Part shown: positions 13,483 through 62,773 of the stretch, piece after piece
Position numbering within the stretch: position 1 is the first letter of the stretch
How the letters are laid out: each line of letters opens with the position of its first letter
From: Methanococcus aeolicus Nankai-3
GTDB taxonomy: Archaea > AGJL01 > Methanococci > Methanococcales > Methanococcaceae
Length of the DNA: 64,000 bases
Assembly (NCBI RefSeq): GCF_000017185.1
Contig: NC_009635.1
Location: 1,056,563 to 1,120,562 of the forward strand
Reading direction: 5' to 3'
Translations under genes and position numbers: made by a program
Notes under the pieces: generated by a model
Database searches by the model: none
Told to the model about the DNA's origin: nothing
Seen by the model: the letters and a program-made list of their open reading frames with translations, nothing else

Positions 13483-13588
13483 AAAATCTCCTTTTAAATA
13501 TGATTTACAATAAATTATAATAAATACTATATGTGTATTATTTATGATATTATCAATATTGGCATAATATATGGTGTGTGGTGCAATT

Positions 13589-40131: not shown

Positions 40132-41289
40132 TTATTCTAGGGGATTAACATAATATACAATTTTATTTCCATCTTCTTTGGCATTTACAATATCCAATTC
40201 TTCCATTTTTCTTAGATTGTATCTAACAGTTTCAACATTCATATCTAAATCTTTGGCTATTTTTCTTAAATGGGCATCATTATTTAACAGATATTGATAT
40301 ATTTCATTTTGGGTATTACTTAAATATAACAACAGTAAATCATTTTTATCCATTCCCACCGGGTAGTATATTATCTTATTACCTATCTTTTTACTTTTTA
40401 TTAATTCTGCCTTTTCCAATATTCTTAAATGCCACGACAATGTTGATAATGATATATTTAACTCTTCGGATAATTTTCTTAAATGACGTCCAGGGTTATC
40501 TATTATGTAATCATAAATTTCTTTTCTTTTTTTATTTAAAAGAACCTTATCTTTGTTATTTGTGGTTATCCTCAATACTACAAATACTGATGTGGATGCG
40601 ATATTTAAAAGAAAGTTTGCCAATTTCTTTTTTAAAACTTCAAAAATGCTTATAATGGATAATAATGAAGTCAATATAAGCAAAATCATAGGTAATGATG
40701 ATGAAGCAACCTTTTTGATTATGAAGATATATATCAAATTAGCCAAACTTAATTTATCGGGCTTAAATCCAGCATATATTTTGTTTCCAACCTTTATTGC
40801 AGCAGGTTCTCCATTTGCATATGTTGCAATAATTTCTCCCTTTTTAGGGTAGGTATAATAATCAATAACTTGGGTTTTGTTGAGTCTTAATGGGTCTTTT
40901 ACCCAATATATTGTAGTTGATGTATTGATTTTTTTAGAACTTGGCAATGGGGCAAATATTATGGCATTGGTTGTGGTATTGATATCTTTATGCGAGATAA
41001 TTAAATTTACGAGTTTGGAATCATTTGTAATTTTAAAGTTAAGTTTTTTAATCAGAGAAATTTCTGTATCTGCATTTATATATGGGGGTATGACAATGTA
41101 TTCCTTTTTTTCACCTACATAGAATACAGGGCTGTTATTTACATAATCTAAATAAACTGTATTGTTGTAAATATTAATATTTACGCCGTCAATGGTATGA
41201 TGTATGCAATTATTAAATGCAAAGGTACTACTAAGTAAATACATTGCAATTAATATAGTTGCCATTATGCCATAGCCAAATTTTTTCAT
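40132..41289 (-). CDS. Membrane-anchored regulator with two winged-helix domains
   Basis: 385 residues. An N-terminal hydrophobic signal (residues 6-26) leads to a beta-rich extracytoplasmic domain (about 27-190). A transmembrane stretch (about 195-220, SLPMILLILTSLLSIISIF) follows, then two tandem ArsR-like winged helices: KEIYDYIIDNPGRHLRKLSEEL... and NEIYQYLLNNDAHLRKIAKDLDMN..., each with a wing ending NKIIYYP or NKIVYYV. Such architecture suggests gene control from the membrane in response to an outside signal. It lies downstream of the surface-protein genes on the same strand, so these are candidate targets. Regulation is inferred, not shown. Confidence 0.82.
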   Translation of the reverse strand: MKKFGYGIMATILIAMYLLSSTFAFNNCIHHTIDGVNINIYNNTVYLDYVNNSPVFYVGEKKEYIVIPPYINADTEISLIKKLNFKITNDSKLVNLIISHKDINTTTNAIIFAPLPSSKKINTSTTIYWVKDPLRLNKTQVIDYYTYPKKGEIIATYANGEPAAIKVGNKIYAGFKPDKLSLANLIYIFIIKKVASSSLPMILLILTSLLSIISIFEVLKKKLANFLLNIASTSVFVVLRITTNNKDKVLLNKKRKEIYDYIIDNPGRHLRKLSEELNISLSTLSWHLRILEKAELIKSKKIGNKIIYYPVGMDKNDLLLLYLSNTQNEIYQYLLNNDAHLRKIAKDLDMNVETVRYNLRKMEELDIVNAKEDGNKIVYYVNPLE

Positions 41290-41319
41290 AATAACCCCAA
41301 TGAATATAAAATAAAATAA

Positions 41320-41541
41320 TCAGTAATTATTTAGGTAAATACCAATAGACATCAAAATTGAAACTATTATCAAACTTATAATTCCAAAGATTATATCTAT
41401 ATCAATAAAACCCATAAATATCAATAAAGAAATCTCTAAAAATATTATTGAAATACCCATCAATATAGAGCCAAATAAACTATTTTTTCTTTTTTTCTTA
41501 TATTTTTTTTCTAATTTTACTATAATATCATTTTCTTTCAT
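41320..41541 (-). CDS. Small two-helix membrane protein
   Basis: 73 residues: MKENDIIVKLEKKYKKKRKNS, a strongly basic head, then two hydrophobic helices (about 22-45 and 48-70: GSILMGISIIFLEISLLIF and IIFGIISLIIVSILMSIG). Function unknown. The start I chose is ATG 41541, four bases after the stop of the upstream 508-residue protein, with GGTAAAAAA as the binding site that overlaps the upstream stop. The longer open frame reaching 41640 overlaps the upstream gene and I reject it. The tight coupling suggests the two proteins work together. Confidence 0.65.
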   Translation of the reverse strand: MKENDIIVKLEKKYKKKRKNSLFGSILMGISIIFLEISLLIFMGFIDIDIIFGIISLIIVSILMSIGIYLNNY

Positions 41542-41545
41542 TTTT

Positions 41546-43072
41546 TTACCAATTACTATGTTTTCCATTATTATAATACACATCCAAGCCCAGGTTAATT
41601 GCAATTTCATAAGATTTTTTATTTGACAAATATATAGCATTTCGAGTAGTATTTAACGCTAATACAATTGCCTTTGCATCATTTAGTGATATATCCTTTA
41701 ATTCATGCAAATCCCTAATATCCATCCATTTTTCATCACTAAATTCATATATTGTAGGATTATATAGGTTTTTATAATTACAACCCTCAGGCATCATTAC
41801 TCCTTTAAAATCTGAATAAATTGTAGTTAATAATTCATCGGGTAATTCGCCACCAATAATTAAAGTTTTCCTTCGATTTATACCCAACAACGGGAATAAT
41901 ACCAATATACTTGGTAATATAACACCATTAAGCACAACTGCGGATTTTAGTTTTTTTGATGAAGTGGGTTGTTTTATTACCACAGAGAAGACTTTTAATT
42001 CCTTTGGTTTATATTCCTCATATTCTGTATTTTCGGAAGTTTTTTTATTTTTATTATTATTTTTATTATTATTTTTATTATTATTTTCTTCGGTTTTGGT
42101 ATTGGATGATGATGATGATGGTGTGTTTTTATTGTTTTCATTATTTTTTGGAAGGAGTGTTGTAATTTTATGATGGTTATTGGATGGACTTAGAGGGTAT
42201 GTATTATAGGGCATATAAAAATCCAAACCTTCAACTTTGGCTATTCCAATGACATATGACTTTCCCACTTTAAGTGCTGGTTTTATAGCTATATTCTCAT
42301 AAGTGTCATTCCAAGCGTAAAATCTTAAATAAAATGTAGGAACATTATCTGATATTATATTAAAAGATTTCGTTATATCTTCATTTGGATTTAATACTGT
42401 TGAATCGTTCCCAAGATGTATTTTGGTATTATTAATCTCTACCCAATAACTGACATTCATATTCAAAGAGATATTTTTATCGTTTTTTATTATATAATTA
42501 GCTGTCCATTCAGTAGATCCATTACTTAAAATTTTATTTGACTTTGTTATTGAAAATGGGATAGATAGCGAATATCTCACTTTTACCTTTGCTGGAATTT
42601 TAAAACTTATGTTATGTTCTTTAAAGTATAAAGTTGAAGAGCTATCAATTTTTGATAATGTTATTGTTTTATAGGAATTAGCTGGAACTAAAACTGAAGT
42701 GTTTTTAATAACAAATCCATCTGGAAACGAGACATTAACTAGTATATCATATGGATAGTTGTTTGTTATATTGTAATAAACCTTCCATTCATTTTTATTG
42801 ATTTTATTTGCTGATATACCTATAAACATGTTAAATTTTTCAGGAGATAGGGAAATAGTTATATTTTTTGGTTGTGAGAGATAAGTAGAGACATTTATAT
42901 AGTATATATTAATACCAAAAGACTCTGGGTTTTCATAATCTATATATAATTTAGAAATATTTACCCCTTGAGAATCATTTGGGTAGAAGATAACATCCCT
43001 ATATTCATACATTTCCCCATAACTTACAGAAAGCAATACAAAAAATATTGCTATTAAATATCTCTTTTTCAT
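41546..43072 (-). CDS. Surface membrane protein with possible cytoplasmic PIN-like domain
   Basis: 508 residues. Signal-like helix at the start (MKKRYLIAIFFVLLSVSYG), a beta-rich Asn/Ser-rich ectodomain with many N-x-S/T sites (about 20-300), an Asn/Lys-rich linker (NNNKNNNKNNNK, TTTATT microsatellite), then a membrane helix near 395-415 (NGVILPSILVLFPLLGI). The last ~100 residues have a pattern like PIN/DUF3368 domains: GVMMPEG near the middle and SLNDAKAIVLALNTTRNAIYLSNKKSYEIAINLGLDVYY at the end. The usual acidic residues are only partly kept (YLSNKK in place of LTDD), so if PIN-like it is probably inactive. Start ATG 43072 rather than 43084. Confidence 0.6.
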   Translation of the reverse strand: MKKRYLIAIFFVLLSVSYGEMYEYRDVIFYPNDSQGVNISKLYIDYENPESFGINIYYINVSTYLSQPKNITISLSPEKFNMFIGISANKINKNEWKVYYNITNNYPYDILVNVSFPDGFVIKNTSVLVPANSYKTITLSKIDSSSTLYFKEHNISFKIPAKVKVRYSLSIPFSITKSNKILSNGSTEWTANYIIKNDKNISLNMNVSYWVEINNTKIHLGNDSTVLNPNEDITKSFNIISDNVPTFYLRFYAWNDTYENIAIKPALKVGKSYVIGIAKVEGLDFYMPYNTYPLSPSNNHHKITTLLPKNNENNKNTPSSSSSNTKTEENNNKNNNKNNNKNKKTSENTEYEEYKPKELKVFSVVIKQPTSSKKLKSAVVLNGVILPSILVLFPLLGINRRKTLIIGGELPDELLTTIYSDFKGVMMPEGCNYKNLYNPTIYEFSDEKWMDIRDLHELKDISLNDAKAIVLALNTTRNAIYLSNKKSYEIAINLGLDVYYNNGKHSNW

Positions 43073-43102
43073 AATTATCATCATTATATATTGTACATAT
43101 AA

Positions 43103-46100
43103 TTAGTTAGGAGGATCTATACCTAGGTTATATGCATCGGATACCCTACAATTTTCAGAGATGTTTAAGATTATGTTTATTTTTTTAATTTCTCCCCCAG
43201 AGATATCGTTGAATTTAAACCGATAGACATTGTTAGTGTTATTAAATTTATTGAAGTATCCAGAGACATTTGTTACATTTGAGTTATTTGGTTTTACCCA
43301 ATAGACATAGACATTACTTACATCGTTGTATGATTTGACCGTTATTGATATATTTATATGATTATCTTCCAAAATTGCAGAAAGTCCAGCTGAAATATTT
43401 ATCCTTTTTATTAACAAATAATCCGGACCAAATTCTGATGTTCCTTTACCTTTTAAAGTGGTAGTTGCAGTTATTAAACATCCTTTTTCAACACCCCTTC
43501 CAGAAATATTAATTGTTCCATTGAAATTCCCATTGTTATCAGCTGTTAAACTACCCTGATAAATCCAGCCTTCTCCATAATGGTTATCCAATACCGAACC
43601 GTTTGAGGAGATATTATTTCCTATTAAATTATCTCCACCACTTGAATTTTTAACTAAATATATCTCAATTGAAGTATTTGCAAATGCTGAGGAACCGCTA
43701 TCATTTCCAACATGGCCTTCAATGTAAAGTTTAGTACTGTTAAGTTTAGCGTAGGTTATAATAGGATAATCTACACCATAATTGGCCTGTGATGAATAAA
43801 TAAAACCGTCATTTGCAGTAATGCCATCTCCTGCTGTTTTATTTATGTTATCTAAATCTATGCCCAATCCACTATTGTTATACATTGAATTTTTAGATAT
43901 TGTAATATTTATTGGACTACCGGAGTATCTGCTTACCACAACCCCTGCGGTGGTGTAATTTTTACCACAATCGTGAATTATATTATATTTAACTACTCCA
44001 TTGTTACTATCATCATCAAAAAGGATTCCTGCTGAGGCTGTGTTAAAAATTGTATTTTCTATTATATCCGCATTTTCAGAGCCATACCTTATTTCAACAC
44101 CCTTTCCCGCACTTCTTGGGTTAGTTCCGCTCCCCATGTATGTATCATGTATCAGGTTTTCTTCCACTGTAATGTTATCGGCATAAACAGCAATGGCATC
44201 TGGATATTTATAGTTAGAATCGCGACCTGCATCAAAGACTTCATTCCACCTTACCAATGTTTTAAGTGGTTCATTTCCTGTTGTGGTTGATTTACCAAGG
44301 CCTATATCGTAACGACCGCAATAACCGATGTAATTTCTTTGAATTATTCCTCCAATATTGGGAAGTGTATTGTCATAGATTACTATACCTTCTTTTGTTA
44401 TATTGTTATTAATTGGGGGATAACTACCATTTGCCCTAACACCAATTATATTTTTTTCTATAAGGAAATTATTACATCCTCCCTGGACTTCAATACCGTC
44501 TCCTGAATTTATCATTGCTATTTTTCTGATAGTAACATTGGATGGATTGATTGTTCCATTTCCTATCTTAAAAGTATAGGAGCTCCCACTTCCATTTACC
44601 TCTAACTCCAATTTGTCAAATCTCGGTAAAGTTGGTTCATCTCCAGTATTTGGAACACCATCAGGCCCTACTCCGACTGTTCCACCAGTCCCTATTTGTC
44701 CAGGATTGCTATCTCTCACCGTCATATTTGGAAAATATGCAGTTCCATCAATAGTTGTAATATTATCCATTATAATGGGTAATTTTTTATTTAATGCAAC
44801 AGACCACCACTTGCCACTTCCATCATTTTCGTTTGGATTCACCATTGGAATAAAATACATGTGGTTTGCTCCATTAATGGCATTGGCATTCTCTATAAAC
44901 TGCCTTAATGTTCCCTGTGCATATCTGTTTGAACTTGAATCGTCATCGGTATCTTTTGTATTAACAACAACATCAAAACTGAATCCAAATAAAATATTAT
45001 TTTTGCTGCTATTGTATTTGCTCGTGTTTATTTTTACATAATGCTCATAAACTCTATTACCCCAATCATCAGATTTTGTTGCATTTCTACCTCCAAAGAA
45101 TGGGATAACTTGGGAATAATTACTATCATTCGTTTGATATGTTTCCTCAGCCCATATATTATTTATAGTGTATCCAGAATTTAATCCTCTTGTTGTATTA
45201 ACAGTTTTTGAATTTACAACAATGAAGTAAATCCCATCTCCATTTACCGTAAAATTAAAACCCCCACTTGAATTCGTTGTAGTATTTTCAATAAATGAAT
45301 CGTTAATATCTAAGATTCCGTTTGCATTTGTATCTTTAACTAAACTTACATTTACATTTGAGATTGGACTATCATTTTTATCATATTCCCCTAAAACTCC
45401 CAAATCCTCATATATTGTTCCTTTTATAATTTTTGGTATGACTTTGACTGAATAATTACTATTATATATAACTCCATTTGATTCTATTCCCGTTATGGAT
45501 ATATTATATGTTCCACTAACCGGTAGATTAAACGAATAATTGTATAATTTCCAGAATGATGGATATATTCCATCAACTTCTTGTAAATCCATTGAATCTT
45601 TTAAATACATTGTTCCATTGGGGTAGAATACTGTTATATTTGCTCCACTTATATCATAAGAGCCTATTGGGTCTGTAATATTGGCAAAAATACTTGCATT
45701 ATCCCCAGAATAATAAACTGTTTTGTCAGTGAATATATTGTTAACTTTAACATAGGTTGTTGTATTTAGCGTTATATTCGATATATGTGCTGAATCATGA
45801 TAAACATTTATAGGACTCTGGGAATTCTGATTTTCCACCCTTAAAACTAAATAGTAATCTTTTGGTATTGTAGTTATTGATGATAGGCTAATATTAAATA
45901 TGTAAGGATTTATGTTGTTATTTAATAATATAGTTTCTTTATCACTTCCTAAGGTGAATGAGCTGCTTCCATCAGTAGCTATTATACTAACTACAACATC
46001 ATGGCTGTTTGTTCCTGATGGATCATCTACATATAATAAAATGGGAATTTTTGAGGTTATAACAAAGTCATCTGCAAATACTGGGTATTGATACCAGGAA

Positions 46101-49100
46101 CTTAACGAGTTTCCATCAATTATTGTATAATTATTTGATTTTAGGGGAACTGAGGTGTTTAATGTTTTTAATGAATTTCCATGTAAATAAAAAGTTTTTT
46201 TAACTGATGGTGGATAAGGTGTTGAAGTTTGGAAAGATACATCATCATATATTAATGGATTTGATATTTGAATAAACTTTAATTTAGTTAAATCAACTTC
46301 CCCCAAGGGAGTTGTAAGGGGTATCTCTTTTAAAACTGTTAAATTGAGCTTACCATTTGGTATATATACATCAGGCAAATTATTTGAATTAGAATCATAA
46401 CCACTAGCGATATAATTCCAGTTTCCATCTCCACTGCTATCTTCGGCTATTAAAAAAGAGTTATTATATATTTTTGTTACCCAACCTTTTGTTGAATTAG
46501 TTATATTTATATCAAATTTATCACCGCCTCCATTATTGTTGACTGTTATATTATAGTATATTTCGTCCCCATCATTTCCTATTTTTTCCTGATAACTTGG
46601 CGTTATTGAAAATGAGGATATATATACAACAATGCTTTTTTCATCATTTGAACTATTTTGGTCATTTGGAAGGTTTGTTTTTATGGATATATTATATTTC
46701 CCATACGGAATATTTGAAATATTTATTGGAAAGCTTATCTTTTTTTCTTCATTATGGGGTACTGATAGATTTATTAAAGTGAAATTTGAATATGAATAAG
46801 TTCCATTAATTTGGCTCATATTTATTGAAACATTTAAATTATATGCATCCACTAACCCATACAAAGCAATTGTTGAATTTACATAGATTATCTTTTGAAT
46901 ATTTGGATTAAAACTATCCCCATTATTTGGGTAATCGATACTTTTAACCCCCGCATCATATAGTTCATTTAATCCAATGTTTATATCATTTATCATATCA
47001 GAATAATTATAACCCAATCCCCAAATTATTGGAATTACCCAAATATCTCCAGAGGCTAAAGAATTTTTACTCCATGATAATGCAGTTCCTGCATCACCAA
47101 TGTACGATGAAGCGTTATTTAAATTATTATTAGATATATCGTTCCACATATATCCATAGTAATTAACATCGTGGGCATAACTTGGGATATTCGACTTAAA
47201 CCCGCCATATTGTATATTATCAACAGGTGCATTAGAATCATACCCATATACTATATCGTCAGAGCCATTATAATATGCATTGTCATTCTGATAACTTCCA
47301 TCAAAATTCCAATCCATACCTTGGAAAAATCTTAAATCATTGTAATTTTTCGTTGTAGGATTTTTTACATAATAAATCGTAGCAAACCATTTGTTATTTC
47401 CTCTAATTATGACTTTTTGAGTGATATTTAAGTTTTTATTATTCCACGGAGCATACATATCTGTTAGAATTAAACTCTCTAAAATACCATTTGGAACTGT
47501 ATTCAGTGCAATGTCTGTCCTATTAATTTCAGATAAATATCTAGATGCAGTTTCAAAATTGTCTCCTCCATTTCCATACTGTCTTGTTCTTGTATTTACA
47601 GTATATCTTATTGCTATTTTTGAACCTGCATCAGCATCAATATTATTTGCATAATTATTGTCACCCGTTCTTCCCGCATGGTCATAAGAAGCTATTGTTG
47701 ATGAATTATCCCCTTCATTATAAGGAAAGATAATTGCAGAAATTTGACCGCACCCTCCATCAGACTGTCCATCATAAGACAATTCAACAGCAATTGAATT
47801 ATTTGGTTTAGGGGGCGTTAATGATATATCATACCCATATACTGGGTCATCGTAGAAATACAATGTATTATTTTCAATATACCACCTTATATTTCCAATA
47901 ACTTCCCCTGTTGTTCTATTTATTGAGATATTATTAAATATGGCTATACCATCATCTCTAACTATTTTTTTAACACCATATCCTTTTGGAATCTTACAAC
48001 TAAACTTATACCAGACATCGTCCAACTTATTATTCACTTCAACCCTAATTTTAGTATTATCTATTTTTTTTTCATTTGCTGTGGTATTTAAAATACCCAT
48101 CGGAAAATTATATTCATTTAATATTTTCTTATCGGCTTTGATTCTAATTTCAATAACTTCATAGTTATTGTTAATTTGTTCTATTTTTAATATACTATAT
48201 TTTTTTTCTTTTCTGTATTTTTCAATGGTTTTTTCAATTTCCTTATTACTGCCTTCAAGATTAATAACTATTTCTTTGCTAATAGGGTCATATGAAACTA
48301 ATTTTTTAATTTTTTTCTTATTTTTAACATTTATAGGTATATGCATCTTCTGTTTTGCATTACCATACAATATTTCAATTTTTTCAATTTTTGATATATT
48401 TAACATATTACTTAAATGAATTAAAGAAATATTGAAATTTCCATTTGTTAATGAAATATTTATTTTCTTTTTAGATGGGTAAACTATAAATTTAACATAT
48501 TTGGGTTTTTTAACATAATATGATACATTACCAAAAATACAGCTATTGTTAAAATCAGCGTTAATTTTGTAGTAATCTACAACAAAAGATTTTTTAAATT
48601 TATCAATTACAACTGTGTAATTTCCCAATATAATATCTTTATTTAATTTTGTCGATAAACTGTAATTTTTTCCTTCTTTATGGATTTTTAAATTAATAAT
48701 TTTATTATTTGGAGTTATAATATAAGCATTATTTGGTTTAAAGTTGGTTTTTATAATTATTTTTTCTGATGGAAAATAGATATCTTTTATTATTACTGTT
48801 TTATTTTTTATTTCATATTTTTTTGTATAGTTTAAAAATATGGTTTTATTTGATGTTTCATTGTCAAATTTTGCGTAAATTTCAATAGGGATGTTTAAAA
48901 TAACTGGAGAGACAATATAAGTCCCATTGCTTGTGTTAATAAAGTTTAAGGTAGTTCCATTTGCAAATCCATATGGAATCCCGTTAGTTTTTACAATAAC
49001 CTTATATCCTTCTACTAAAACATTTAAATAATGTGTATCTTCATTACTTTCATTTTCAAGATTTTCAGTTGTATTTGATAAATTATCAGCCATATTACTC

Positions 49101-49297
49101 AAATTAGCTGAATCAGTTATATCTGGAGTTATATTATATGTTTTATTAAATTGGGAGATATTTGATAAATTTTCATAGATTGATATATTTGAGTTATTTA
49201 AAGCTGATTCATTTAATGTTGGTAAATTGGCCATTGCAAAATTTGATAACAACAAAACAATTACTAAAAACATTGTAATAATCTTTATAAATTTCAT
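43103..49297 (-). CDS. Giant exported beta-rich surface protein (2064 residues)
   Basis: Signal peptide MKFIKIITMFLVIVLLLSNFAMA, then an Asn/Ser/Thr-rich stretch with very many N-x-S/T sites. Beta-sandwich-like repeats follow, among them a CARDB-like segment near 890-960 (NISNIPYGKYNISIKTNLPNDQN) and an SdrD-like domain near 1290-1360 (GTIYEDLG, NGILDINDSFIENTTT). A right-handed beta-helix-like region near 1450-1780 has short repeats such as GDGIEVQGGCNNFLIEKNIIG. The end is NCRVSDAYNLGIDPPN, with no membrane helix or anchor. Likely an adhesin or surface-layer partner; role unknown. The next gene starts 30 bp downstream. It holds only one GGAGCTCC. Confidence 0.72.
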   Translation of the reverse strand: MKFIKIITMFLVIVLLLSNFAMANLPTLNESALNNSNISIYENLSNISQFNKTYNITPDITDSANLSNMADNLSNTTENLENESNEDTHYLNVLVEGYKVIVKTNGIPYGFANGTTLNFINTSNGTYIVSPVILNIPIEIYAKFDNETSNKTIFLNYTKKYEIKNKTVIIKDIYFPSEKIIIKTNFKPNNAYIITPNNKIINLKIHKEGKNYSLSTKLNKDIILGNYTVVIDKFKKSFVVDYYKINADFNNSCIFGNVSYYVKKPKYVKFIVYPSKKKINISLTNGNFNISLIHLSNMLNISKIEKIEILYGNAKQKMHIPINVKNKKKIKKLVSYDPISKEIVINLEGSNKEIEKTIEKYRKEKKYSILKIEQINNNYEVIEIRIKADKKILNEYNFPMGILNTTANEKKIDNTKIRVEVNNKLDDVWYKFSCKIPKGYGVKKIVRDDGIAIFNNISINRTTGEVIGNIRWYIENNTLYFYDDPVYGYDISLTPPKPNNSIAVELSYDGQSDGGCGQISAIIFPYNEGDNSSTIASYDHAGRTGDNNYANNIDADAGSKIAIRYTVNTRTRQYGNGGDNFETASRYLSEINRTDIALNTVPNGILESLILTDMYAPWNNKNLNITQKVIIRGNNKWFATIYYVKNPTTKNYNDLRFFQGMDWNFDGSYQNDNAYYNGSDDIVYGYDSNAPVDNIQYGGFKSNIPSYAHDVNYYGYMWNDISNNNLNNASSYIGDAGTALSWSKNSLASGDIWVIPIIWGLGYNYSDMINDINIGLNELYDAGVKSIDYPNNGDSFNPNIQKIIYVNSTIALYGLVDAYNLNVSINMSQINGTYSYSNFTLINLSVPHNEEKKISFPINISNIPYGKYNISIKTNLPNDQNSSNDEKSIVVYISSFSITPSYQEKIGNDGDEIYYNITVNNNGGGDKFDINITNSTKGWVTKIYNNSFLIAEDSSGDGNWNYIASGYDSNSNNLPDVYIPNGKLNLTVLKEIPLTTPLGEVDLTKLKFIQISNPLIYDDVSFQTSTPYPPSVKKTFYLHGNSLKTLNTSVPLKSNNYTIIDGNSLSSWYQYPVFADDFVITSKIPILLYVDDPSGTNSHDVVVSIIATDGSSSFTLGSDKETILLNNNINPYIFNISLSSITTIPKDYYLVLRVENQNSQSPINVYHDSAHISNITLNTTTYVKVNNIFTDKTVYYSGDNASIFANITDPIGSYDISGANITVFYPNGTMYLKDSMDLQEVDGIYPSFWKLYNYSFNLPVSGTYNISITGIESNGVIYNSNYSVKVIPKIIKGTIYEDLGVLGEYDKNDSPISNVNVSLVKDTNANGILDINDSFIENTTTNSSGGFNFTVNGDGIYFIVVNSKTVNTTRGLNSGYTINNIWAEETYQTNDSNYSQVIPFFGGRNATKSDDWGNRVYEHYVKINTSKYNSSKNNILFGFSFDVVVNTKDTDDDSSSNRYAQGTLRQFIENANAINGANHMYFIPMVNPNENDGSGKWWSVALNKKLPIIMDNITTIDGTAYFPNMTVRDSNPGQIGTGGTVGVGPDGVPNTGDEPTLPRFDKLELEVNGSGSSYTFKIGNGTINPSNVTIRKIAMINSGDGIEVQGGCNNFLIEKNIIGVRANGSYPPINNNITKEGIVIYDNTLPNIGGIIQRNYIGYCGRYDIGLGKSTTTGNEPLKTLVRWNEVFDAGRDSNYKYPDAIAVYADNITVEENLIHDTYMGSGTNPRSAGKGVEIRYGSENADIIENTIFNTASAGILFDDDSNNGVVKYNIIHDCGKNYTTAGVVVSRYSGSPINITISKNSMYNNSGLGIDLDNINKTAGDGITANDGFIYSSQANYGVDYPIITYAKLNSTKLYIEGHVGNDSGSSAFANTSIEIYLVKNSSGGDNLIGNNISSNGSVLDNHYGEGWIYQGSLTADNNGNFNGTINISGRGVEKGCLITATTTLKGKGTSEFGPDYLLIKRINISAGLSAILEDNHINISITVKSYNDVSNVYVYWVKPNNSNVTNVSGYFNKFNNTNNVYRFKFNDISGGEIKKINIILNISENCRVSDAYNLGIDPPN

Positions 49298-49360: not shown

Positions 49361-49430
49361 AATTTATAGAACATTTTTTAGACAGTTTTTTATTTTAAAA
49401 ATGAAAAAATAAAATAAGATAAAATAAAAT
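49361..49430 (-). promoter_or_regulatory. Upstream motif shared with a second surface-protein gene
   Basis: Lies 64-133 bp before the start of the giant surface gene. On the minus strand the core reads AACTGTCTAAAAAATGTTCT followed by ATAAATT. A closely matching block precedes the surface gene at 53341-55179 (55287-55352). The CTATAAA string could be a TATA box, with the preceding bases a shared upstream element. Confidence 0.5.
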
Positions 49431-49458: not shown

Positions 49459-50190
49459 TTATTCATTTTCTTTTTTTCTATTGGATCTTAACTCTGTATA
49501 TACCAATATTATTACCAAGATTGCCAATACAGTTAACCAAAACAACACATATCCATAAGTTGGCAATTTTGGCAATGGCAATATTGAAAATTCTGCTTTT
49601 ATAATATGTAAGGTATTTTTTGGAACTCTAAAATTGTTTCCATCAGGTTCTTGATATGTTAAGTGATAAGGTGAGTTAAATTTTATATTTAAATTATCTA
49701 TATCCATGTCACAACCTACTGGCAAAGATACTGTTTTAAATAAAATTCCGTCATCTACAATATCGGCATTATATTCTAATATCACCGTTACATTGGAATA
49801 TTTATCAATGGGCTCCCAAATCTCATAGCATATAGTTGTAAAATCACTACTACTATTTTTTATATAAACATTCATAGGTGTTAATTTACCGTCTCCAATT
49901 TTATAATAACCTTCTAAATGGCTTATATCAATAGATTTAACCTCCTTTGTAAATGGAATCGGTATAATAAAAAGTTTTTTAGGTCCTCGCTCCTGCAATC
50001 TCAACTCTCCAATACCTGGAACTAATGGATATGATGCAAGGTTTTTTATTGCAAATATATTTTTAACCGTAGTTTGCCCATTATCTATTTTTATGTCCAT
50101 AGAATAATTAGTTATTTTTTCAACATCTGCATAACTACAAGATAGGGTAGATAGCAATAATAGTGAAAATATTAGGCCTATTTTTTTCAT
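49459..50190 (-). CDS. Exported protein with C-terminal membrane helix
   Basis: 243 residues: signal peptide MKKIGLIFSLLLLSTLSCSYA, a beta-sandwich ectodomain (about 22-210) with FTKEVKSIDIS, YNADIVDDGILFKTVSLPVGCD and NLNIKFNSPYHLTY, then a membrane helix (about 213-235, YVLFWLTVLAILVIILVY) and a short basic tail RSNRKKENE. The function is unknown; the fold suggests a cell-surface protein. Start at ATG 50190 with GAGGGAAAGT; the in-frame TTG at 50202 is less likely. Same strand as the other surface genes, between the two paralogs and the giant gene. Confidence 0.78.
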   Translation of the reverse strand: MKKIGLIFSLLLLSTLSCSYADVEKITNYSMDIKIDNGQTTVKNIFAIKNLASYPLVPGIGELRLQERGPKKLFIIPIPFTKEVKSIDISHLEGYYKIGDGKLTPMNVYIKNSSSDFTTICYEIWEPIDKYSNVTVILEYNADIVDDGILFKTVSLPVGCDMDIDNLNIKFNSPYHLTYQEPDGNNFRVPKNTLHIIKAEFSILPLPKLPTYGYVLFWLTVLAILVIILVYTELRSNRKKENE

Positions 50191-50271
50191 ACTTTCCCTC
50201 AAATTCCCCTGATTTATTTTTAATTTTATTTATAAATTTTTATATTAAGGCATATTTAAACTTTTTTCTAA

Positions 50272-50817
50272 AAAAAAAGAAATAAAGAATTTATTATTTA
50301 TTTAGTTATTTTTTCTTCTTCTTATTATACAACCTACACCAACTAAACCACTCAATAGCATCAATAATGGTTCGTAGTTATCTGCTATTGCACCACTAAC
50401 AAGTGTTATCTTTGGTGAGGTTGTAGGAAGTAATGAATGCGTAGGGTCGATACCTACAATGAATGCATCTGATGGATTGAATACACCAGTTCCATTTATT
50501 GTATAGTGTATAACTACTGTTTTACTGTTAGTTATTTCTGATGTATCGTTATAACTACCATCCCCATCTGCTCCTCCATTGAGAGGATTCAATGCCCAAT
50601 ATACACTCATATTATATCTTGGGTCAGATACCGAATGATTTCCAGTGTTATTTAACATGTCCGTTCTATTTACAGATATACTACCAACAATTGAGAAGTT
50701 CTGAGGTATTAAATCGTAGGCATAAACGAAAGGTGATGTTTCGCTTCCAATATTTTCCACTACGATATACATGTCATAGGTTCCATCTGCATTTGGTATG
50801 ATATGTTTTGTTACCTT
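50272..50817 (-). repeat. Near-identical 546-bp tract, copy 1
   Basis: Corresponds to 53311-53856. It spans the 3' intergenic bases and the last about 170 codons of the 980-residue gene. I see only about two mismatches across the block, while the genes diverge sharply outside it. Confidence 0.88.
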
Positions 50818-53244
50818 TATCATGTAGGAACCTACAACCAAAATTTTTTCTATTACTATATATTTATTTCCCATTCCTCCGGTTTCTCTTGTTATGGAAT
50901 AATCGTCATTGGTTATTTTAAATGAGCAATTTGCCCAAACTATTGGCACGCCATCAAATGTAAAGTTATATGCCAGAGTATTCCAAGATTCAGAGGGTTC
51001 TAATTCAATGTTTGGTGTTAGGGAATGATTGCTATCATTATCATATCCATTATCTCTTGTAATCCAAATACTCTTATCGAATGGGTCCCAACATTGATGA
51101 TATGCCGATTTATTAACTGCCCAGATATTCAAACTTGTTAAATTAAAATTGTAGGATTTTGCCTTATTTTTGAAAGTTGCAGTTTCATTCCAATGATATT
51201 CATCATCAGAACCATGAATTGTAGAAATTGACCCTATACCTGAGGCATAAACTCCTTTTATTGATGAATTTGTGGATATACCATTGTAATTAAATTCTAC
51301 CACTGCAAATCCATATCTTTTTAATGCACCATCCCTTTTAGATATATTTCCGTTGTAAATACCATGAATTGTAAAGTTTATCTCGGCTTTTTGAGAATTA
51401 TTTAATGATATATTATACCATTTTAGGGCATTTGAAAAACTATTAAAGTATTCTCCATCAAAGGTATATGCATTTCCTCTATTGTATGACATATTTGTTA
51501 TATTTAGCATACTCCAATTTTCATCACCATAAAATCCATCATTTGAAGGAATTACCCTTAAATCATCTACATAGTAAGGATGACCTCCCCTTATTACAAT
51601 TCTATCAAATGACTTATAAGTATTATCATTTGCGGAAACTTCTTTTTGATAATCCATGCTTTCATTGTATATTTTTAAGGTTATTGTTCCATTGGAGTAT
51701 ATATATAACTTAAATTTATACCATTCATTTTCGGGCGGATTCCAAGATATTTTATTAGATATACTATTAGCACCACCATTTGTTCTTTTATCTATCCATA
51801 TTTCATTACTACTATGAGATACTGCAATAGTATACCCATTAAAGTTTTCATCCTCTAAACCAACCCTATCTATTGGACCTGCCCAACTACTTGCATAAGG
51901 TCTATAAATCCAACCTTGAAGGGATATAGTCCTATTGTACTGTTTTGGTAATATGTAATATCCTCCACTCGGGTCATTATAGTTAGAATCACTCGTATTG
52001 TCGTTTCCCTTCCAAAGTGAATGATTTTTAGAGTGGGAGAAATTTGAAGACCAGTTTATAATTCCCGTCCCATATTGGTGCCAATTACTCCAATTGTTAA
52101 AATCCTCATAAAATGAATTATTACTCAGATATTTTGTGAAATTAACATATACAGTATTATTACCAATTACATCTTTATTTGGGATAATATCGACTTTAAC
52201 ATTCCAATAGGTTTGATTGTAATGTGCAGGTATCTTTGTTGTGGAATAGGTTTCATTTATTGTTATAGGCAGAGTTTTTGAGGGGTTTATATCAAAGGCA
52301 CAATCCACATAACTATTATTTGGGAGCTCCGATATGTGTATATAATCAGTTCCTTTTCCATTAATTCCTGTATATGATGGGGCATTATTGGTAATATAAA
52401 CGCCTTTTGGAGTGCCGTTATAAACTACTCTTAGTGGTGTAATATTGTCTGAAATATTTACTACAACCCAAACATCATGCAATGTGTCATCAATATATGG
52501 GGCTGTATTTTCAATAATAAAATGACCCACTAAACCTCCTGAGGAGTAATTTAATTCTCCATTTCCATCTGCAACCGCTACTGAGTTAAATTTTTCCACA
52601 TACTTAATTTTTAAGGGACTACTTAAATTTACAACCTCTAAATCATCAACATAATATTGATAACCCCCATGAATAACTACCCTATCAAATGAATTATAAG
52701 TATTATCATTTGTGGAAACTGTTGCCCCTAAGGTTCCATTATTATAGTATGTTGAAAGTGTTATTGTTCCATTGGAGTATATATACAACTTAAATTTATA
52801 CCATTCATCTTCTGGTGGATTCCAAGATATTTTATTAGATATGGTAGCAGCACCCCCATTTGTTCTTTTATCTGTCCATATTTTATTACTGCCATGGGAC
52901 ACTGCAATGGTGTATCCATTAAAATTTTCATCCTCTAAACCAAGCCTATCTATTGAACCACTACTATAATTACTCGGTCTATAAATCCACCCACTAATAA
53001 CAACATCCCTTCCAACCACTTCTGATAAATTTTTATAACCGCCATTTGGGTCGTTATTATTATCTTTTTTCAACGAGTAATTTCCAGAATAATGTTGTTC
53101 ATTTGATTGATATACTGTTCCAGAGCCATAATTGGCCCACCCACTCCAATTTTCAAAATTATCATAAAATATCATATTTGATGCTGAAATAGTATTAACA
53201 CATGCTATTAATAACATTAACAGTATAACATATTTAAATTCCAT
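50302..53244 (-). CDS. Surface protein with two inserted LamG-like modules
   Basis: 980 residues. Signal peptide (about 1-21), a first jelly-roll-like module at about 26-205, a beta-domain also found in the 612-residue paralog, and a second copy of the module at about 378-565. The modules share GLEDENFNGYTIAVSH, DKRTNGGA and NKISWNPP at equal spacing (101 and 461). The second copy is inserted right after KYLSNN, where the paralog continues directly. The C-terminal half ends GLVGVGCIIRRRKNN, a hydrophobic helix plus basic tail. Each module may bind a surface glycan; this is inferred from the fold only. Start ATG after GGGGCAATATT. Confidence 0.75.
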   Translation of the reverse strand: MEFKYVILLMLLIACVNTISASNMIFYDNFENWSGWANYGSGTVYQSNEQHYSGNYSLKKDNNNDPNGGYKNLSEVVGRDVVISGWIYRPSNYSSGSIDRLGLEDENFNGYTIAVSHGSNKIWTDKRTNGGAATISNKISWNPPEDEWYKFKLYIYSNGTITLSTYYNNGTLGATVSTNDNTYNSFDRVVIHGGYQYYVDDLEVVNLSSPLKIKYVEKFNSVAVADGNGELNYSSGGLVGHFIIENTAPYIDDTLHDVWVVVNISDNITPLRVVYNGTPKGVYITNNAPSYTGINGKGTDYIHISELPNNSYVDCAFDINPSKTLPITINETYSTTKIPAHYNQTYWNVKVDIIPNKDVIGNNTVYVNFTKYLSNNSFYEDFNNWSNWHQYGTGIINWSSNFSHSKNHSLWKGNDNTSDSNYNDPSGGYYILPKQYNRTISLQGWIYRPYASSWAGPIDRVGLEDENFNGYTIAVSHSSNEIWIDKRTNGGANSISNKISWNPPENEWYKFKLYIYSNGTITLKIYNESMDYQKEVSANDNTYKSFDRIVIRGGHPYYVDDLRVIPSNDGFYGDENWSMLNITNMSYNRGNAYTFDGEYFNSFSNALKWYNISLNNSQKAEINFTIHGIYNGNISKRDGALKRYGFAVVEFNYNGISTNSSIKGVYASGIGSISTIHGSDDEYHWNETATFKNKAKSYNFNLTSLNIWAVNKSAYHQCWDPFDKSIWITRDNGYDNDSNHSLTPNIELEPSESWNTLAYNFTFDGVPIVWANCSFKITNDDYSITRETGGMGNKYIVIEKILVVGSYMIKVTKHIIPNADGTYDMYIVVENIGSETSPFVYAYDLIPQNFSIVGSISVNRTDMLNNTGNHSVSDPRYNMSVYWALNPLNGGADGDGSYNDTSEITNSKTVVIHYTINGTGVFNPSDAFIVGIDPTHSLLPTTSPKITLVSGAIADNYEPLLMLLSGLVGVGCIIRRRKNN

Positions 53245-53310
53245 AATATTGCCCCAATAATATTAATTATCATAGCCCAAATATCGTTAAATTATTATTA
53301 AAAATAATTA

Positions 53311-53856
53311 AAAAAAAGAAATAAAGAATTTATTATTTATTTAGTTATTTTTTCTTCTTCTTATTATACAACCTACACCAACTAAACCACTCAATAGCAT
53401 CAATAATGGTTCGTAGTTATCTGCTATTGCACCACTAACAAGTGTTATCTTTGGTGAGGTTGTAGGAAGTAATGAATGCGTAGGGTCGATACCTACAATG
53501 AATGCATCTGATGGATTGAATACACCAGTTCCATTTATTGTATAGTGTATAACTACTGTTTTACTGTTAGTTATTTCTGATGTATCGTTATAACTACCAT
53601 CCCCATCTGCTCCTCCATTGAGAGGATTCAATGCCCAATATATACTCATATTATATCTTGGGTCAGATACCGAATGATTTCCAGTGTTATTTAACATGTC
53701 CGTTCTATTTACAGATATACTACCAACAATTGAGAAGTTCTGAGGTATTAAATCGTAGGCATAAACGAAAGGTGATGTTTCGCTTCCAATATTTTCCACT
53801 ACGATATACATGTCATAGGTTCCATCTGCATTTGGTATTATATGTTTTGTTACCTT
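53311..53856 (-). repeat. Near-identical 546-bp tract, copy 2
   Basis: Partner of 50272-50817, 3039 bp away in the same orientation. It covers the C-terminal coding part of the 612-residue surface gene plus its 3' flank. The sharp edges suggest gene conversion or a recent partial duplication. Confidence 0.88.
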
Positions 53857-55179
53857 GATTAAATAACTTCCAACGATTTGTATTTTTTCTGTAATGATAT
53901 ATGCACTACCATATTTTGTGCTATATTCATTTACTGACCTATTTAGTAAGGTTATATTATTATCCACTACCTTAAATGTGCAGTTTGCCCAAACTACTGG
54001 GACACTACTAAATGTAAAGTTAAATTTAGAGGTATTCCAATGAGCTCCTGGTGCAAGTGTTGTAGGTAATGGACTACCATAGGTATAATTTGAACCACTT
54101 ATTAATAAACTTGAATCGAATGGGTCTAATGTTGTTGGATTACTTCCATCTACGGCCCAAATATTAACATTTGTTAGATTGAATGAATATGATTTTGCTT
54201 TATTTTTGAAGGTTGCATTTTCATACCATAAAACATAATTTCCACTTGCATCTTGTTCAGGACCTTGCTTATTTGCACTAATTTGTCCATAACCTGATGC
54301 AAATATTCCAGGAATTACAGAGGTTGCATTGTAATGTGTATTATTATAATTGAAGTAAATTACTGCAAATCCATAAGGTATTTCTAATGCATTTCTACCT
54401 GTATATGAACTATCTGCATTTACTGTGAAGTTTAACTGTTGTATAGAATTATCAGATAATAATACATCGGTCCAATTTAAAGCATCATTGTTATTTGATA
54501 CATAAGGCCCATTCCAAACTACTGTTGAACCTGTGCTACTTGCATTATTTGATATATCTAATTGTGTCCAAGTGCTATTTCCATAGTTATTAGGGTCATT
54601 ACTCAAATATTTAACTACTTCTACACTTACATTTGAATTTGTTACTGAATCATTTCTTTTTACTGTCATATATACTGTCCAATTTACTACTGTATTGGCG
54701 GGAACTTTTGTTGTTGAATAGGTTTCATCTACAATAATAGGAGCTCCTGCATTGGGTACATTGGATACATTGTAGCTAAATGTATATATAATCCAGCTGT
54801 TAGGTCCAAGAGTACTTATATGTATATATTTATCACCTCCTGAAAGACCAGTTTTTGCATCAGGAGAATCTGCTATATTATTTCCAAGAACCGTTCCAGA
54901 TTTGTTATAATATTCTAAACCTGTTATGTTGTTTGTCATATTTACTGTAATCCATACATCATTTAATGTATCATTTACATCAGTTGCAGTGTTGTTTATA
55001 ATTACATATGCAGTGATATTATTAACAGTTGGATTTACTCCAGTTGATGTGGCAGTTCCAGTTATATTATATTTCTCTTCATAAGTTACCTTTAATGGTC
55101 CGTTCGTGCCGTAGGCAGATACCATAGATATTGCCCCGACAATGCACAACAGACTTATTAATGCAATATATTTTTTCAT
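53341..55179 (-). CDS. Surface protein with C-terminal anchor (612 residues)
   Basis: Signal peptide MKKYIALISLLCIVGAISMVSA, then beta-sandwich domains rich in Asn and Thr with many N-x-S/T sites. It aligns with the 980-residue neighbour along its whole length, apart from that protein's two extra modules. The C-terminus has DNYEPLLMLLSGLVGVGCIIRRRKNN: Glu-Pro, a hydrophobic helix and an Arg cluster, like the PEP-CTERM type sorting tails handled by exosortases and archaeosortases; no such enzyme is in the window. Start ATG after TTTGGGTGAACTATA. It has a promoter-proximal block shared with the giant gene. Confidence 0.75.
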   Translation of the reverse strand: MKKYIALISLLCIVGAISMVSAYGTNGPLKVTYEEKYNITGTATSTGVNPTVNNITAYVIINNTATDVNDTLNDVWITVNMTNNITGLEYYNKSGTVLGNNIADSPDAKTGLSGGDKYIHISTLGPNSWIIYTFSYNVSNVPNAGAPIIVDETYSTTKVPANTVVNWTVYMTVKRNDSVTNSNVSVEVVKYLSNDPNNYGNSTWTQLDISNNASSTGSTVVWNGPYVSNNNDALNWTDVLLSDNSIQQLNFTVNADSSYTGRNALEIPYGFAVIYFNYNNTHYNATSVIPGIFASGYGQISANKQGPEQDASGNYVLWYENATFKNKAKSYSFNLTNVNIWAVDGSNPTTLDPFDSSLLISGSNYTYGSPLPTTLAPGAHWNTSKFNFTFSSVPVVWANCTFKVVDNNITLLNRSVNEYSTKYGSAYIITEKIQIVGSYLIKVTKHIIPNADGTYDMYIVVENIGSETSPFVYAYDLIPQNFSIVGSISVNRTDMLNNTGNHSVSDPRYNMSIYWALNPLNGGADGDGSYNDTSEITNSKTVVIHYTINGTGVFNPSDAFIVGIDPTHSLLPTTSPKITLVSGAIADNYEPLLMLLSGLVGVGCIIRRRKNN

Positions 55180-55286: not shown

Positions 55287-55352
55287 ACTTTATAGGACAT
55301 TTTTAGACAGTTTTATTTCAAAAATGAAAAAAATAAAATAAGATAAAATAAA
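55287..55352 (-). promoter_or_regulatory. Upstream motif shared with the giant surface-protein gene
   Basis: Lies 108-173 bp before the start of the 612-residue surface gene. The minus-strand core AAACTGTCTAAAAATGTCCT and the following ATAAAGT match the block at 49361-49430. The match includes the A/T-rich run upstream (TTTTATCTTATTTTATTTTT). Confidence 0.5.
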
Positions 55353-55390: not shown

Positions 55391-55862
55391 TTATATTAAA
55401 ATTGAACCTATTATACAACACAAAAGCATAAAATTCATGATATACATTATATTTTTTGATGATTTTTTAGCACCACTTTTTGAAGGAGCTCCAACAATTT
55501 AACGATTGAACATATATATAATATATCATACAGAATTATCCCCACTAAATAAATCTCTCTAAATATGTCCATAATATAGGACAATAAAATTAGAATAACT
55601 GCAACTATTAAAAAAATCCCTGCAATATATAAGGATTTATCGCCATATTTTATTGGAAGAGAAATAACCTCTTCTTTTAAACCCCCTCCTCAAAATTCTT
55701 TATTGTCCCCCTCTAATCCCGTGTTGTAAACATTGCACATAAAACTAAAATCAAAGTAATGCCAACATTATTAACGGATGCACCACCAAATAGAAATACT
55801 GGGCCCGTAAGATAAGCCACTATTAAATTTCCAATTATTTTATTTTTTTGTATTTTTTAGCG
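55391..55862 (-). pseudogene. Decayed, 5'-truncated UbiA-family prenyltransferase gene
   Basis: Read on the minus strand, AKKYKK, then after a one-base frameshift NLIVAYLTGPVFLFGGAS, matches NLIVAYLTGSIFIFGGAS of the intact gene at 13589-14428. Further on come LCAMFTTRD followed by an in-frame TAG, then after a scrambled stretch EEVISLPIKYGDKS (intact: EGVISLPIKYGKNS), and the end MNFMLLCCIIGSILI before TAA. The second aspartate-rich motif is destroyed, so it cannot be active. The first ~130 codons are missing; the break lies exactly where the microsatellite beside the cas genes begins. It still has a GGAGCTCC. Confidence 0.85.
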
Positions 55863-55864
55863 TG

Positions 55865-55917
55865 TATAGATATAGATATAGATATAGATATAGATATAGA
55901 TATAGATATAGATATAG
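55865..55917 (+). repeat. TATAGA hexanucleotide microsatellite
   Basis: About nine tandem copies of TATAGA. It sits at the junction between the pseudogene and the cas locus. The plus-strand frame MYRYRYRYR is only a translation of the repeat and not a gene. Confidence 0.93.
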
Positions 55918-55968: not shown

Positions 55969-56631
55969 TTATAATGACGACACAGAGCCAAATCCTTTTG
56001 ATACTTTCCCACCAATCCCCAACAGATTTGGAATATTAAAATTAACTTCAAATTTGCCAAAAAATCCAATAAATTTAGTTCCCTTGTATTTAACTGGGAT
56101 TTCATCATATTCTAAAATATTTGCTTCTATTCTCTTATCTACTGTGTAGTTTAAGTATTTACTCATTGATAGCAGGTTTCCTATCAATATTTTTTCAAGT
56201 TTTTCTTTTCGTCCATTCTCATTTAATTTTTTGTAATCTAAATAATTTTTCTCATTTAGAGCAACCCATGGAGATACAAACCTATATTTTTTTAAATCAT
56301 CACATGCTCCAAAATCCTCAGATTTTACAGAGATATATCCATCAACAACATCATATAATTCATGATTCAATTCTAATTTGTCAATATCGAGTACCATACT
56401 TCCTAAAATATTTGTTCCTTCATCTATGCCTATTAGATAAGCATTACCACCCATTATTTTGTACTGAATTTTGGGGTAAGAGTATATAAATCCATTTCCG
56501 CTGTGGTGGTGTAGTTCTTTATGACCGCATTTATTAAATTTATTTAAAATATACCCCCTTAAATAAGAGGTTTGAAATTTTTTTAATGGTCTATCTGTTT
56601 TTAATTTACAGTGCATTGTTTTTAATTTCAT
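55969..56631 (-). CDS. cas6: CRISPR-associated endoribonuclease Cas6 (Cas6b type)
   Basis: 220-residue RNA nuclease that cuts pre-crRNA within the repeat. The closing glycine-rich loop GIGGKVSKGFGSVSSL is the Cas6 hallmark, and HHHSGNGFIYSYPKIQYKIMGG at about 45-65 fits the N-terminal half of Cas6b. His residues in KELHHHSG could be catalytic. The stop of cas3 overlaps ATG 56643 (ATGA), but GAGGGAAAAT gives a better binding site for ATG 56631, which I chose. Last gene of the cas operon; a repeat-like palindrome follows it. Confidence 0.87.
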   Translation of the reverse strand: MKLKTMHCKLKTDRPLKKFQTSYLRGYILNKFNKCGHKELHHHSGNGFIYSYPKIQYKIMGGNAYLIGIDEGTNILGSMVLDIDKLELNHELYDVVDGYISVKSEDFGACDDLKKYRFVSPWVALNEKNYLDYKKLNENGRKEKLEKILIGNLLSMSKYLNYTVDKRIEANILEYDEIPVKYKGTKFIGFFGKFEVNFNIPNLLGIGGKVSKGFGSVSSL

Positions 56632-56639
56632 ATTTTCCC

Positions 56640-58958: not shown

Positions 58959-58975
58959 ATATTGTCCCTCAATAA

Positions 58976-59746
58976 TTAAATAAGCGTAATATTCTCTTTT
59001 AGTTCTGGGATATGATAATACTCTTTAACCTTGCAATTTATTGATTCTCCATTTCGTTCGTAAAATATATCAATATACTCTGTGGTTAATCTATTTTCAT
59101 CCATTTCATTTGGTATCTTTGAAAATAAATATTCCTTATTTAGTTCTAAATTAATATCGTCATTTATGATATTATCTCGTCTAATTAATGAGTTAATGGT
59201 TGTGTATTCGTCATCGGAAACTTTTTTCTCAAATTCAAATTCTCCCATATATTCAAAATTTGCTAGGAGCTCCGATAGTCCCAACGATATAGTATATACT
59301 GTTTTATGCTGTTCCAACAATTTCTTTAATTTTGAATATAGTTTTTCATCGGTTAAATGAACATACAACCTATATTTTGGATTTTTAAGCATTTCAAATC
59401 GTATTTGGGTTCTATTTGGAATTAAATTTACATTATATATCTTAATACTTTTAATACTTTTATTATCTAAGGAGATATTGGATTTTTTTATCTTGTCTCT
59501 CTTTGTATCAATTAGATTCAGGGCAATATTGGTTTTTTGTATAGGATTTTTTATTTTTAGGGCTATCTTTACAGTATCTTTATTTATATGCTTTAAATAG
59601 TCTTCCTTATCCAATCCTAAAAATGCTCCCAACATGCCATATATTGAAGTTTTTGGGGGAAAATCATAAGATAAAGGACTTGTAGTTGTATAGATTTTTT
59701 TAAAATGCCCATAATCCCCCCAAATATCAAAAACTATCATCTTCAT
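58976..59746 (-). CDS. cas5: CRISPR-associated protein Cas5 (type I-B)
   Basis: 256-residue RAMP subunit that caps the 5' handle of crRNA in Cascade. The N-terminal IVFDIWGDYGHFKKIYTTTSPLSYDFPPKTSIYGMLGAFLG has the family's FP-P-S-ls-G-L-ga-lG pattern. C-terminal segments include NRTQIRFEMLKNPKYRLYVH and SLGLSELLANFEYMGEFE, as in the Hmari-type Cas5. Start ATG 59746 after TTTGGTGAAAAT. The gap to cas7 is about 60 bp, to cas3 17 bp. Confidence 0.93.
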   Translation of the reverse strand: MKMIVFDIWGDYGHFKKIYTTTSPLSYDFPPKTSIYGMLGAFLGLDKEDYLKHINKDTVKIALKIKNPIQKTNIALNLIDTKRDKIKKSNISLDNKSIKSIKIYNVNLIPNRTQIRFEMLKNPKYRLYVHLTDEKLYSKLKKLLEQHKTVYTISLGLSELLANFEYMGEFEFEKKVSDDEYTTINSLIRRDNIINDDINLELNKEYLFSKIPNEMDENRLTTEYIDIFYERNGESINCKVKEYYHIPELKENITLI

Positions 59747-59806
59747 ATTTTCACCAAAAAGTGTGAAATAAATTAAAATAAAATAATATGGTGTGTGTTG
59801 AATATA

Positions 59807-62645: not shown

Positions 62646-62773
62646 ACTCCCCCCATTAATACAGTAAATAAATATTAACATATAAATATAGTAATAATTA
62701 TATTAATATAGTATATAAATTTTTTGTTATATAAATTTTTTATTTCAAAATTAAAAAAATAAAATGGGGAAAT
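62646..62773. promoter_or_regulatory. Divergent promoter region between cas8b and cas1
   Basis: 128 bp, nearly all A/T, with tandem TTATATAAATTTTTT-type strings (62701-62740) that could be TATA boxes for both directions. No CRISPR repeat is present. Confidence 0.45.

Follow-up and report, generated by a model that had tools for sequence, protein, structure and literature searches.

Described PIN domains are RNases and toxins, and bacterial transmembrane activators of the ToxR/CadC type unite an outer sensor domain, a membrane helix and a cytoplasmic winged helix in one polypeptide. In archaea, the membrane-bound one-component regulators ArnR and ArnR1 are found in Sulfolobus acidocaldarius, ArnR being built of N-terminal HTH, HAMP-like and sensor domains with two C-terminal membrane helices (PMC6396743); biochemical study of archaeal membrane-bound regulators extends to very few cases (PMC6396743). 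Here we describe a gene cluster of Methanococcus aeolicus Nankai-3, a genome of 1,569,500 bases in a single contig whose relatives are the Methanococcales, in which surface proteins, a membrane protein with a PIN-like cytoplasmic domain and a membrane-bound winged-helix protein are encoded side by side. All coordinates refer to the window, the whole stretch of 64,000 nucleotides that was analysed. A literature search by locus names found no publication naming the cluster genes or assigning a function to any member.

Results

Organization of the gene cluster

The cluster comprises seven genes, all on the minus strand, between 55179 and 40132; the genes and the two domains discussed below are as follows.

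53341-55179, minus strand: s612, exported surface protein of 612 aa with a C-terminal anchor and 32 N-glycosylation sequons
50302-53244, minus strand: s980, the other s612-family protein, carrying two additional repeats at the N-terminus
49459-50190, minus strand: p247, surface protein of 243 aa with a transmembrane helix at the C-terminus
43103-49297, minus strand: giant protein, exported, 2064 aa, 101 sequons, lacking a membrane anchor
41546-43072, minus strand: PIN-like membrane protein, with signal peptide, ectodomain of ~350 aa, one transmembrane helix and cytoplasmic PIN-like domain
41549-41878, minus strand: predicted PIN-like cytoplasmic domain (residues 399-508), assigned by profile comparison, AlphaFold, Foldseek and active-site columns
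41320-41541, minus strand: small two-helix membrane protein, 73 aa
40132-41289, minus strand: membrane-bound regulator, with signal peptide or helix, ectodomain of ~170 aa, transmembrane helix and tandem winged helices
40144-40542, minus strand: tandem winged-helix DNA-binding region (regulator residues 250-382), matched above cut-off by Pfam PF24266, PF13412 and PF01022 in two stretches

An earlier note, made from the sequence alone, had singled out the last four genes, and its positions, strand, lengths (2064, 508, 73 and 385 aa, all open reading frames) and gaps (30, 4 and 30 bp, in order from the giant gene to the regulator gene) all hold; the set was nevertheless drawn short, as p247, s980 and s612 belong to it by conservation. 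T-rich stretches are found 3' of s612 and of s980, and the p247 and giant genes are each preceded by about 110-160 bp, so that the giant, PIN-like, small and regulator genes most likely form one transcript, judging by spacing.

Beside the cluster lies what is left of a decayed UbiA-type prenyltransferase gene (55403-55861, minus strand), whose product shares 67% identity over 57 aa with that of an intact copy at 13571-14428 and then continues in a second frame. An intact UbiA-type homologue occupies the same cluster edge at another locus (L017), and the cluster therefore probably once had such a gene as its neighbour. The gap upstream of s612 contains the hexamer TATAGA in tandem repeat (55865-55912), and adjoining the surface cluster at 55969-63778 are cas genes with Cas3-, Cas5-, Cas7- and Cas1-like products, which look like a type I CRISPR-Cas system. 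At 14468-18145 (minus strand), the window also encodes an anaerobic ribonucleotide reductase-like protein that appears to contain an in-frame intein.

The surface proteins

The sequon density of s612, s980 and the giant protein is about five per 100 residues. The C-terminal domain of the giant protein (~130 aa) is homologous to that of s612 (hhalign 96.1%, E 3.7e-9), and the giant protein terminates at a 'GIDP' motif, before the point at which an anchor would follow. No relative of s612 other than s980 was found elsewhere in the host genome. These two genes are identical at their 3' ends over 300-302 nt (50271-50570 vs 53310-53609), including sequence beyond the stop codon, and differ outside this segment, which looks like recent gene conversion. 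In p247, 27 residues are invariant from Methanococci through Archaeoglobi. A search for kinship among the ectodomains of the regulator, the PIN-like protein and p247 found none.

Conservation of the neighbourhood

The core of the cluster, to which s612, p247, the PIN-like protein and the two-helix protein belong and often also the giant protein, is found again in 16 of the 36 Methanococci and in Archaeoglobi. By protein search, the 508-aa PIN-like protein is present in the same number of Methanococci (16/36), as a single copy in each, and the 15 loci that were inspected hold s612, p247, giant, PIN-like and small genes together, often along with the regulator gene. One scan for related loci extended to Archaeoglobi, and a profile search detected the PIN-like family in 17 of the 394 genomes of their phylum. 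Archaeoglobi loci keep s612, p247, PIN-like and small genes in tight order with frequent 4-bp overlaps and with the giant gene present or absent; in one genome (G149) this run of four adjoins neither a giant gene nor a regulator gene.

The small gene immediately follows the PIN-like gene at all loci fully sequenced at that point, bar one outlier (L096), and the presence of PIN-like protein and p247 agrees in 34/36 Methanococci (Fisher p = 4e-8, a significance inflated by the kinship of the genomes), the two exceptions being fragmented draft genomes. Although such co-occurrence tests overstate independence, the genomes being related and several incomplete, these two observations place the association of the cluster genes above chance. 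Conservation of the neighbourhood, which the earlier note had named as a check on its proposal, is thus borne out by a core found across Methanococci and Archaeoglobi.

Several loci show individual departures. In genome G004, whose cluster includes a protein of 2894 aa, the p247 gene is split into two frames (L021:2361-3070); elsewhere the regulator gene is split (L022) or the small gene frameshifted (L023), and these changes are either true mutations or sequencing errors. At the outlier locus (L096:9009-10508, genome G406), the membrane helix of a PIN-like protein homologue is followed by PKD-like sequence where the others have the PIN-like domain, and no small gene adjoins it.

The cytoplasmic PIN-like domain and the small two-helix protein

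The 508-aa protein bears 14 N-glycosylation sequons in its ectodomain, which a transmembrane helix (residues 378-396) separates from a cytoplasmic part of about 110 residues. When the PIN-like and small proteins were scanned with Pfam and NCBIfam models, also as single domains, no match rose above cut-off, and none of the 28 PIN-like members reached the gathering cut-off of DUF3368 (PF11848), whether scanned at full length or as domains. When profiles were compared using hhalign, the 28 C-termini matched a DUF3368 set from Archaeoglobi at 94.8% (E 5e-8) and the Methanococcales C-termini alone did so at 84% over 94 columns; the PIN-like profile scored 42-68% with a PF01850 set, compared with 0.4% for a winged-helix control and 0.7% for 12 Archaeoglobi RCK domains, in a test stringent enough that two accepted PIN sets scored just 0.5% against each other. 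The AlphaFold model of the domain, computed from a ten-sequence alignment (pLDDT 84, pTM 0.79), shows alternating strands and helices in the order E-H-E-E-H-H-E-H-E, for which ranks 1-6 among solved structures in Foldseek were human NOB1, VapC-type PIN and archaeal Nob1 (best E 0.012, probability 0.99), a modest E-value with RCK and other Rossmann-like folds further down the match list. In a PDB sequence search with the domain, the natural matches were 2mdt (E 0.0004, 'putative uncharacterized protein') and Nob1 2lcq (E 0.13); the top-scoring matches, designed repeat proteins, were discarded. Alignment places the first-strand aspartate in 13 of the 28 sequences, and the third-site and fourth-site acids in 11 each, so that none is conserved, and the copy in the window has G and N at two catalytic-acid sites. 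By profile comparison and structure prediction, the C-terminus of the 508-aa protein is thus PIN-like in both fold and kinship. The degenerate PIN/DUF3368 domain that the earlier note had read into the end of this protein finds confirmation in these matches and in the variable acids, and the fold prediction that it had proposed for the 41546-43072 protein did return a PIN fold.

Archaeoglobi have a longer small protein of 176-190 aa, in which the two membrane helices are joined to a further C-terminal domain, and the membrane parts of the short and long forms match at 97% by profile comparison. For the additional domain, profile probabilities were 95.4% with the PIN-like domain and 60% with DUF3368; the structural model of the long form is of low confidence and has no match to PIN structures, so the putative PIN-like kinship of the domain comes from profiles only. 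Searched against PDB sequences, the small protein family gave chance matches only. Many Methanococcales small proteins end in a PPIVID- or PPIVVE-like sequence where the first strand (RIVADS) of the Archaeoglobi domain starts, which makes truncation the likelier origin of the short form, as judged from the alignment, rather than gain of a domain in the long one; the small protein in the window has lost this stub as well. As the small protein of Archaeoglobi bears a second, homologous C-terminal domain, the ancestral unit may have been a pair of membrane PIN-like proteins.

Two other readings of the cytoplasmic domain were considered. It might be a membrane-tethered RNase that cuts RNA near the membrane, such as surface-protein mRNAs, when the ectodomain is triggered, as the PIN-like fold and an invariant first-strand aspartate in the domain of the Archaeoglobi small protein would allow; the poorly conserved acids, substituted in the window's own copy, make an active nuclease unlikely, and we give the RNase reading as a whole little credence. 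Equally hard to credit is a Rossmann-like ligand-binding domain of another type (RCK or CARF), with the complex acting as a gated channel or ligand sensor. MthK/TrkA RCK and Cam1 CARF chains do occur among the Foldseek matches and MthK heads those for the small-protein model, but PIN chains come first for the better of the two models, and the 12 RCK domains scored <=1% with both domains, which DUF3368 matched at 95% and 60%. Kinship with RCK or TrkA_N was rejected on this profile probability of at most 1%.

The membrane-bound regulator

Two HTH stretches of the 385-aa protein match ArsR and HVO_0163-type models above the Pfam/NCBIfam cut-offs, with whole-protein scores of 54 bits for PF24266 (cut-off 31), 47.6 for PF01022 (cut-off 22) and 62.9 for NF033788 (cut-off 55), and hydropathy and domain positions indicate that the HTH domain is tethered by a membrane helix. 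No match to a HAMP domain was obtained in the regulator, and a search of the host genome at E 0.001 yielded no further paralogues. The regulator ectodomain occurs in 8/36 Methanococci, without exception within the cluster; the gene lies 3' of the small gene in seven of these genomes and before the giant gene in one (L031). No regulator was found in Archaeoglobi clusters or in 8 Methanococci that have the cluster. Since the core thus exists in Archaeoglobi and several Methanococcales without such a regulator, the regulator is a Methanococcales addition and not the general output of the core.

A promoter element shared by the cluster genes

In the window, alignment of the sequence upstream of s612 with that upstream of the giant gene scores 106, compared with a maximum of 60 among 500 shuffles, and both stretches contain an element with the consensus TGTC-N6/7-TGTYCTAYAAA.

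55289-55309, minus strand: promoter element TGTCTAAAAATGTCCTATAAA, 130 nt upstream of s612
49363-49384, minus strand: promoter element TGTCTAAAAAATGTTCTATAAA, 87 nt upstream of the giant gene

The element core, TGTC-N6/7-TGTYCTATAAA, also precedes s612, giant and PIN-like genes in other species. A genome-wide scan of the 36 Methanococci located 22 exact copies in 12 genomes (reversed-pattern control, 0), 17 of them at cluster genes and none in any genome without the cluster. At <=1 mismatch, the element occurs in the 250 bp upstream of 17 cluster genes; of 102 other ORFs, 0 have it there at <=2 mismatches. Among these related genomes, all 8 that have the regulator also have the element, compared with 2 of the 8 in which the cluster lacks a regulator (p = 0.0035). 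These two come from a Methanocaldococcus group, whose relatives have the regulator between the small gene and the next gene, consistent with loss; because they keep the element, a factor other than the regulator could bind it. The element stands before the regulator gene itself in one genome and before the PIN-like-small-regulator unit in others, which suggests autoregulation.

Outside the cluster, the element precedes a pilin-like secreted protein (L174:676-1521) and a secreted protein resembling cell-wall-binding families (L177:246-1521), suggesting a wider surface regulon; chance may account for the other three outside copies, which stand in front of a small ORF, a pdxT-like gene and a nucleotidyltransferase-like gene.

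Discussion

The reading that we favour, at roughly even odds (about 0.5), is that of a surface-structure module seated on a membrane platform with a dead PIN-like scaffold and controlled, in Methanococcales, by a membrane-bound factor. The s612/s980 and giant proteins would be glycosylated cell-surface proteins, the anchorless giant probably docking on an anchored s612-type protein or on membrane subunits, and p247, the PIN-like protein and the small two-helix protein would form the platform that holds or assembles them in a physical complex. On the cytoplasmic face, the PIN-like domain would serve as a catalytically dead scaffold, which in Archaeoglobi would have a partner of the same kind on the small protein. 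To this the Methanococcales would have added the membrane-bound tandem winged-helix protein, with an ectodomain that may sense the state of the surface layer and winged helices predicted to bind two TGTC half-sites beside the TATA box, thereby controlling the cluster and itself. A tandem winged-helix protein would be well matched to a pair of like half-sites that lie beside a TATA box at a spacing of one helical turn, and we think it probable that the factor acting on the cluster is this 385-aa predicted binder.

An unrelated transcription factor might bind the element instead, with the winged-helix protein regulating something else, a possibility that we hold to be real though not probable: two genomes keep the element without the regulator and 5/22 copies lie away from the cluster, yet the element occurs in no genome that lacks the cluster and in a minority of those that lack the regulator, and two of the five outside copies precede secreted, surface-type proteins (L174 and L177). 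The earlier note had pictured a relay of surface contact, in which the PIN-like ectodomain and the surface proteins bind a ligand and the cytoplasmic domain signals to the neighbouring winged-helix protein. The adjacent genes with their 4-bp and 30-bp gaps, the protein topologies, which permit it, and a common promoter element that fits local gene control all speak for such a relay, but the PIN-like protein persists in Archaeoglobi and in 8 cluster-bearing Methanococci that lack the regulator, the regulator gene of L031 sits before the giant gene and not 3' of the small gene, and the regulator owns an ectodomain, so that no relay is needed; we consider the relay unlikely. As the purpose of the system it finds no support, because the same core exists without any such regulator, while the idea of surface-linked gene control survives in the form of a membrane-anchored regulator linked to surface genes and a promoter element of the cluster. 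The term 'trans-envelope', under which the relay had been proposed, is apt for a path across one membrane; an archaeon of this kind has no outer membrane. A bolder version of the module, which we offer as a doubtful extension, is that two paralogous membrane proteins with dead PIN-like domains form a structural switch, holding giant surface proteins outside and signalling their state inside, and that in Methanococcales the membrane-bound tandem winged-helix factor takes its input from the surface and governs a small, dedicated regulon via TGTC-N7-TGTTC sites.

Were the favoured reading of a surface-structure module on a PIN-like platform true, the PIN fold would be put to a new use, in the form of a conserved pair of dead PIN-like domains joined to surface proteins. 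With the shared element, what had been a guess at surface-linked gene control in archaea narrows to one candidate regulator and a small, testable set of promoters. Relatives are known for every single part; what appears to be new is their combination, together with the pairing of membrane PIN-like proteins and the dedicated element.

The predicted cytoplasmic domain has in common with the PIN superfamily (DUF3368/PF11848, VapC, NOB1) its strand-helix topology, profile similarity and structural matches, and differs in being joined via a membrane helix to a surface ectodomain and in its non-conserved catalytic acids. Both HTH stretches of the regulator match winged helices of the ArsR/HVO_0163 type, which here, unlike in those families, share a polypeptide with a membrane helix and with an ectodomain that has no family assignment. 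Compared by domain layout, the regulator resembles ArnR/ArnR1 as a membrane-bound archaeal helix-turn-helix factor tied to surface structures; its order is the reverse of that of ArnR, the N-terminal domain being extracellular and followed by a membrane helix, and the tandem winged helix standing at the C-terminus. Like ToxR/CadC-type activators (CadC is the subject of PMC5430869), it combines these three parts in a single polypeptide, but its domains follow the opposite order and its winged helices are tandem and of the archaeal ArsR/HVO_0163 type.
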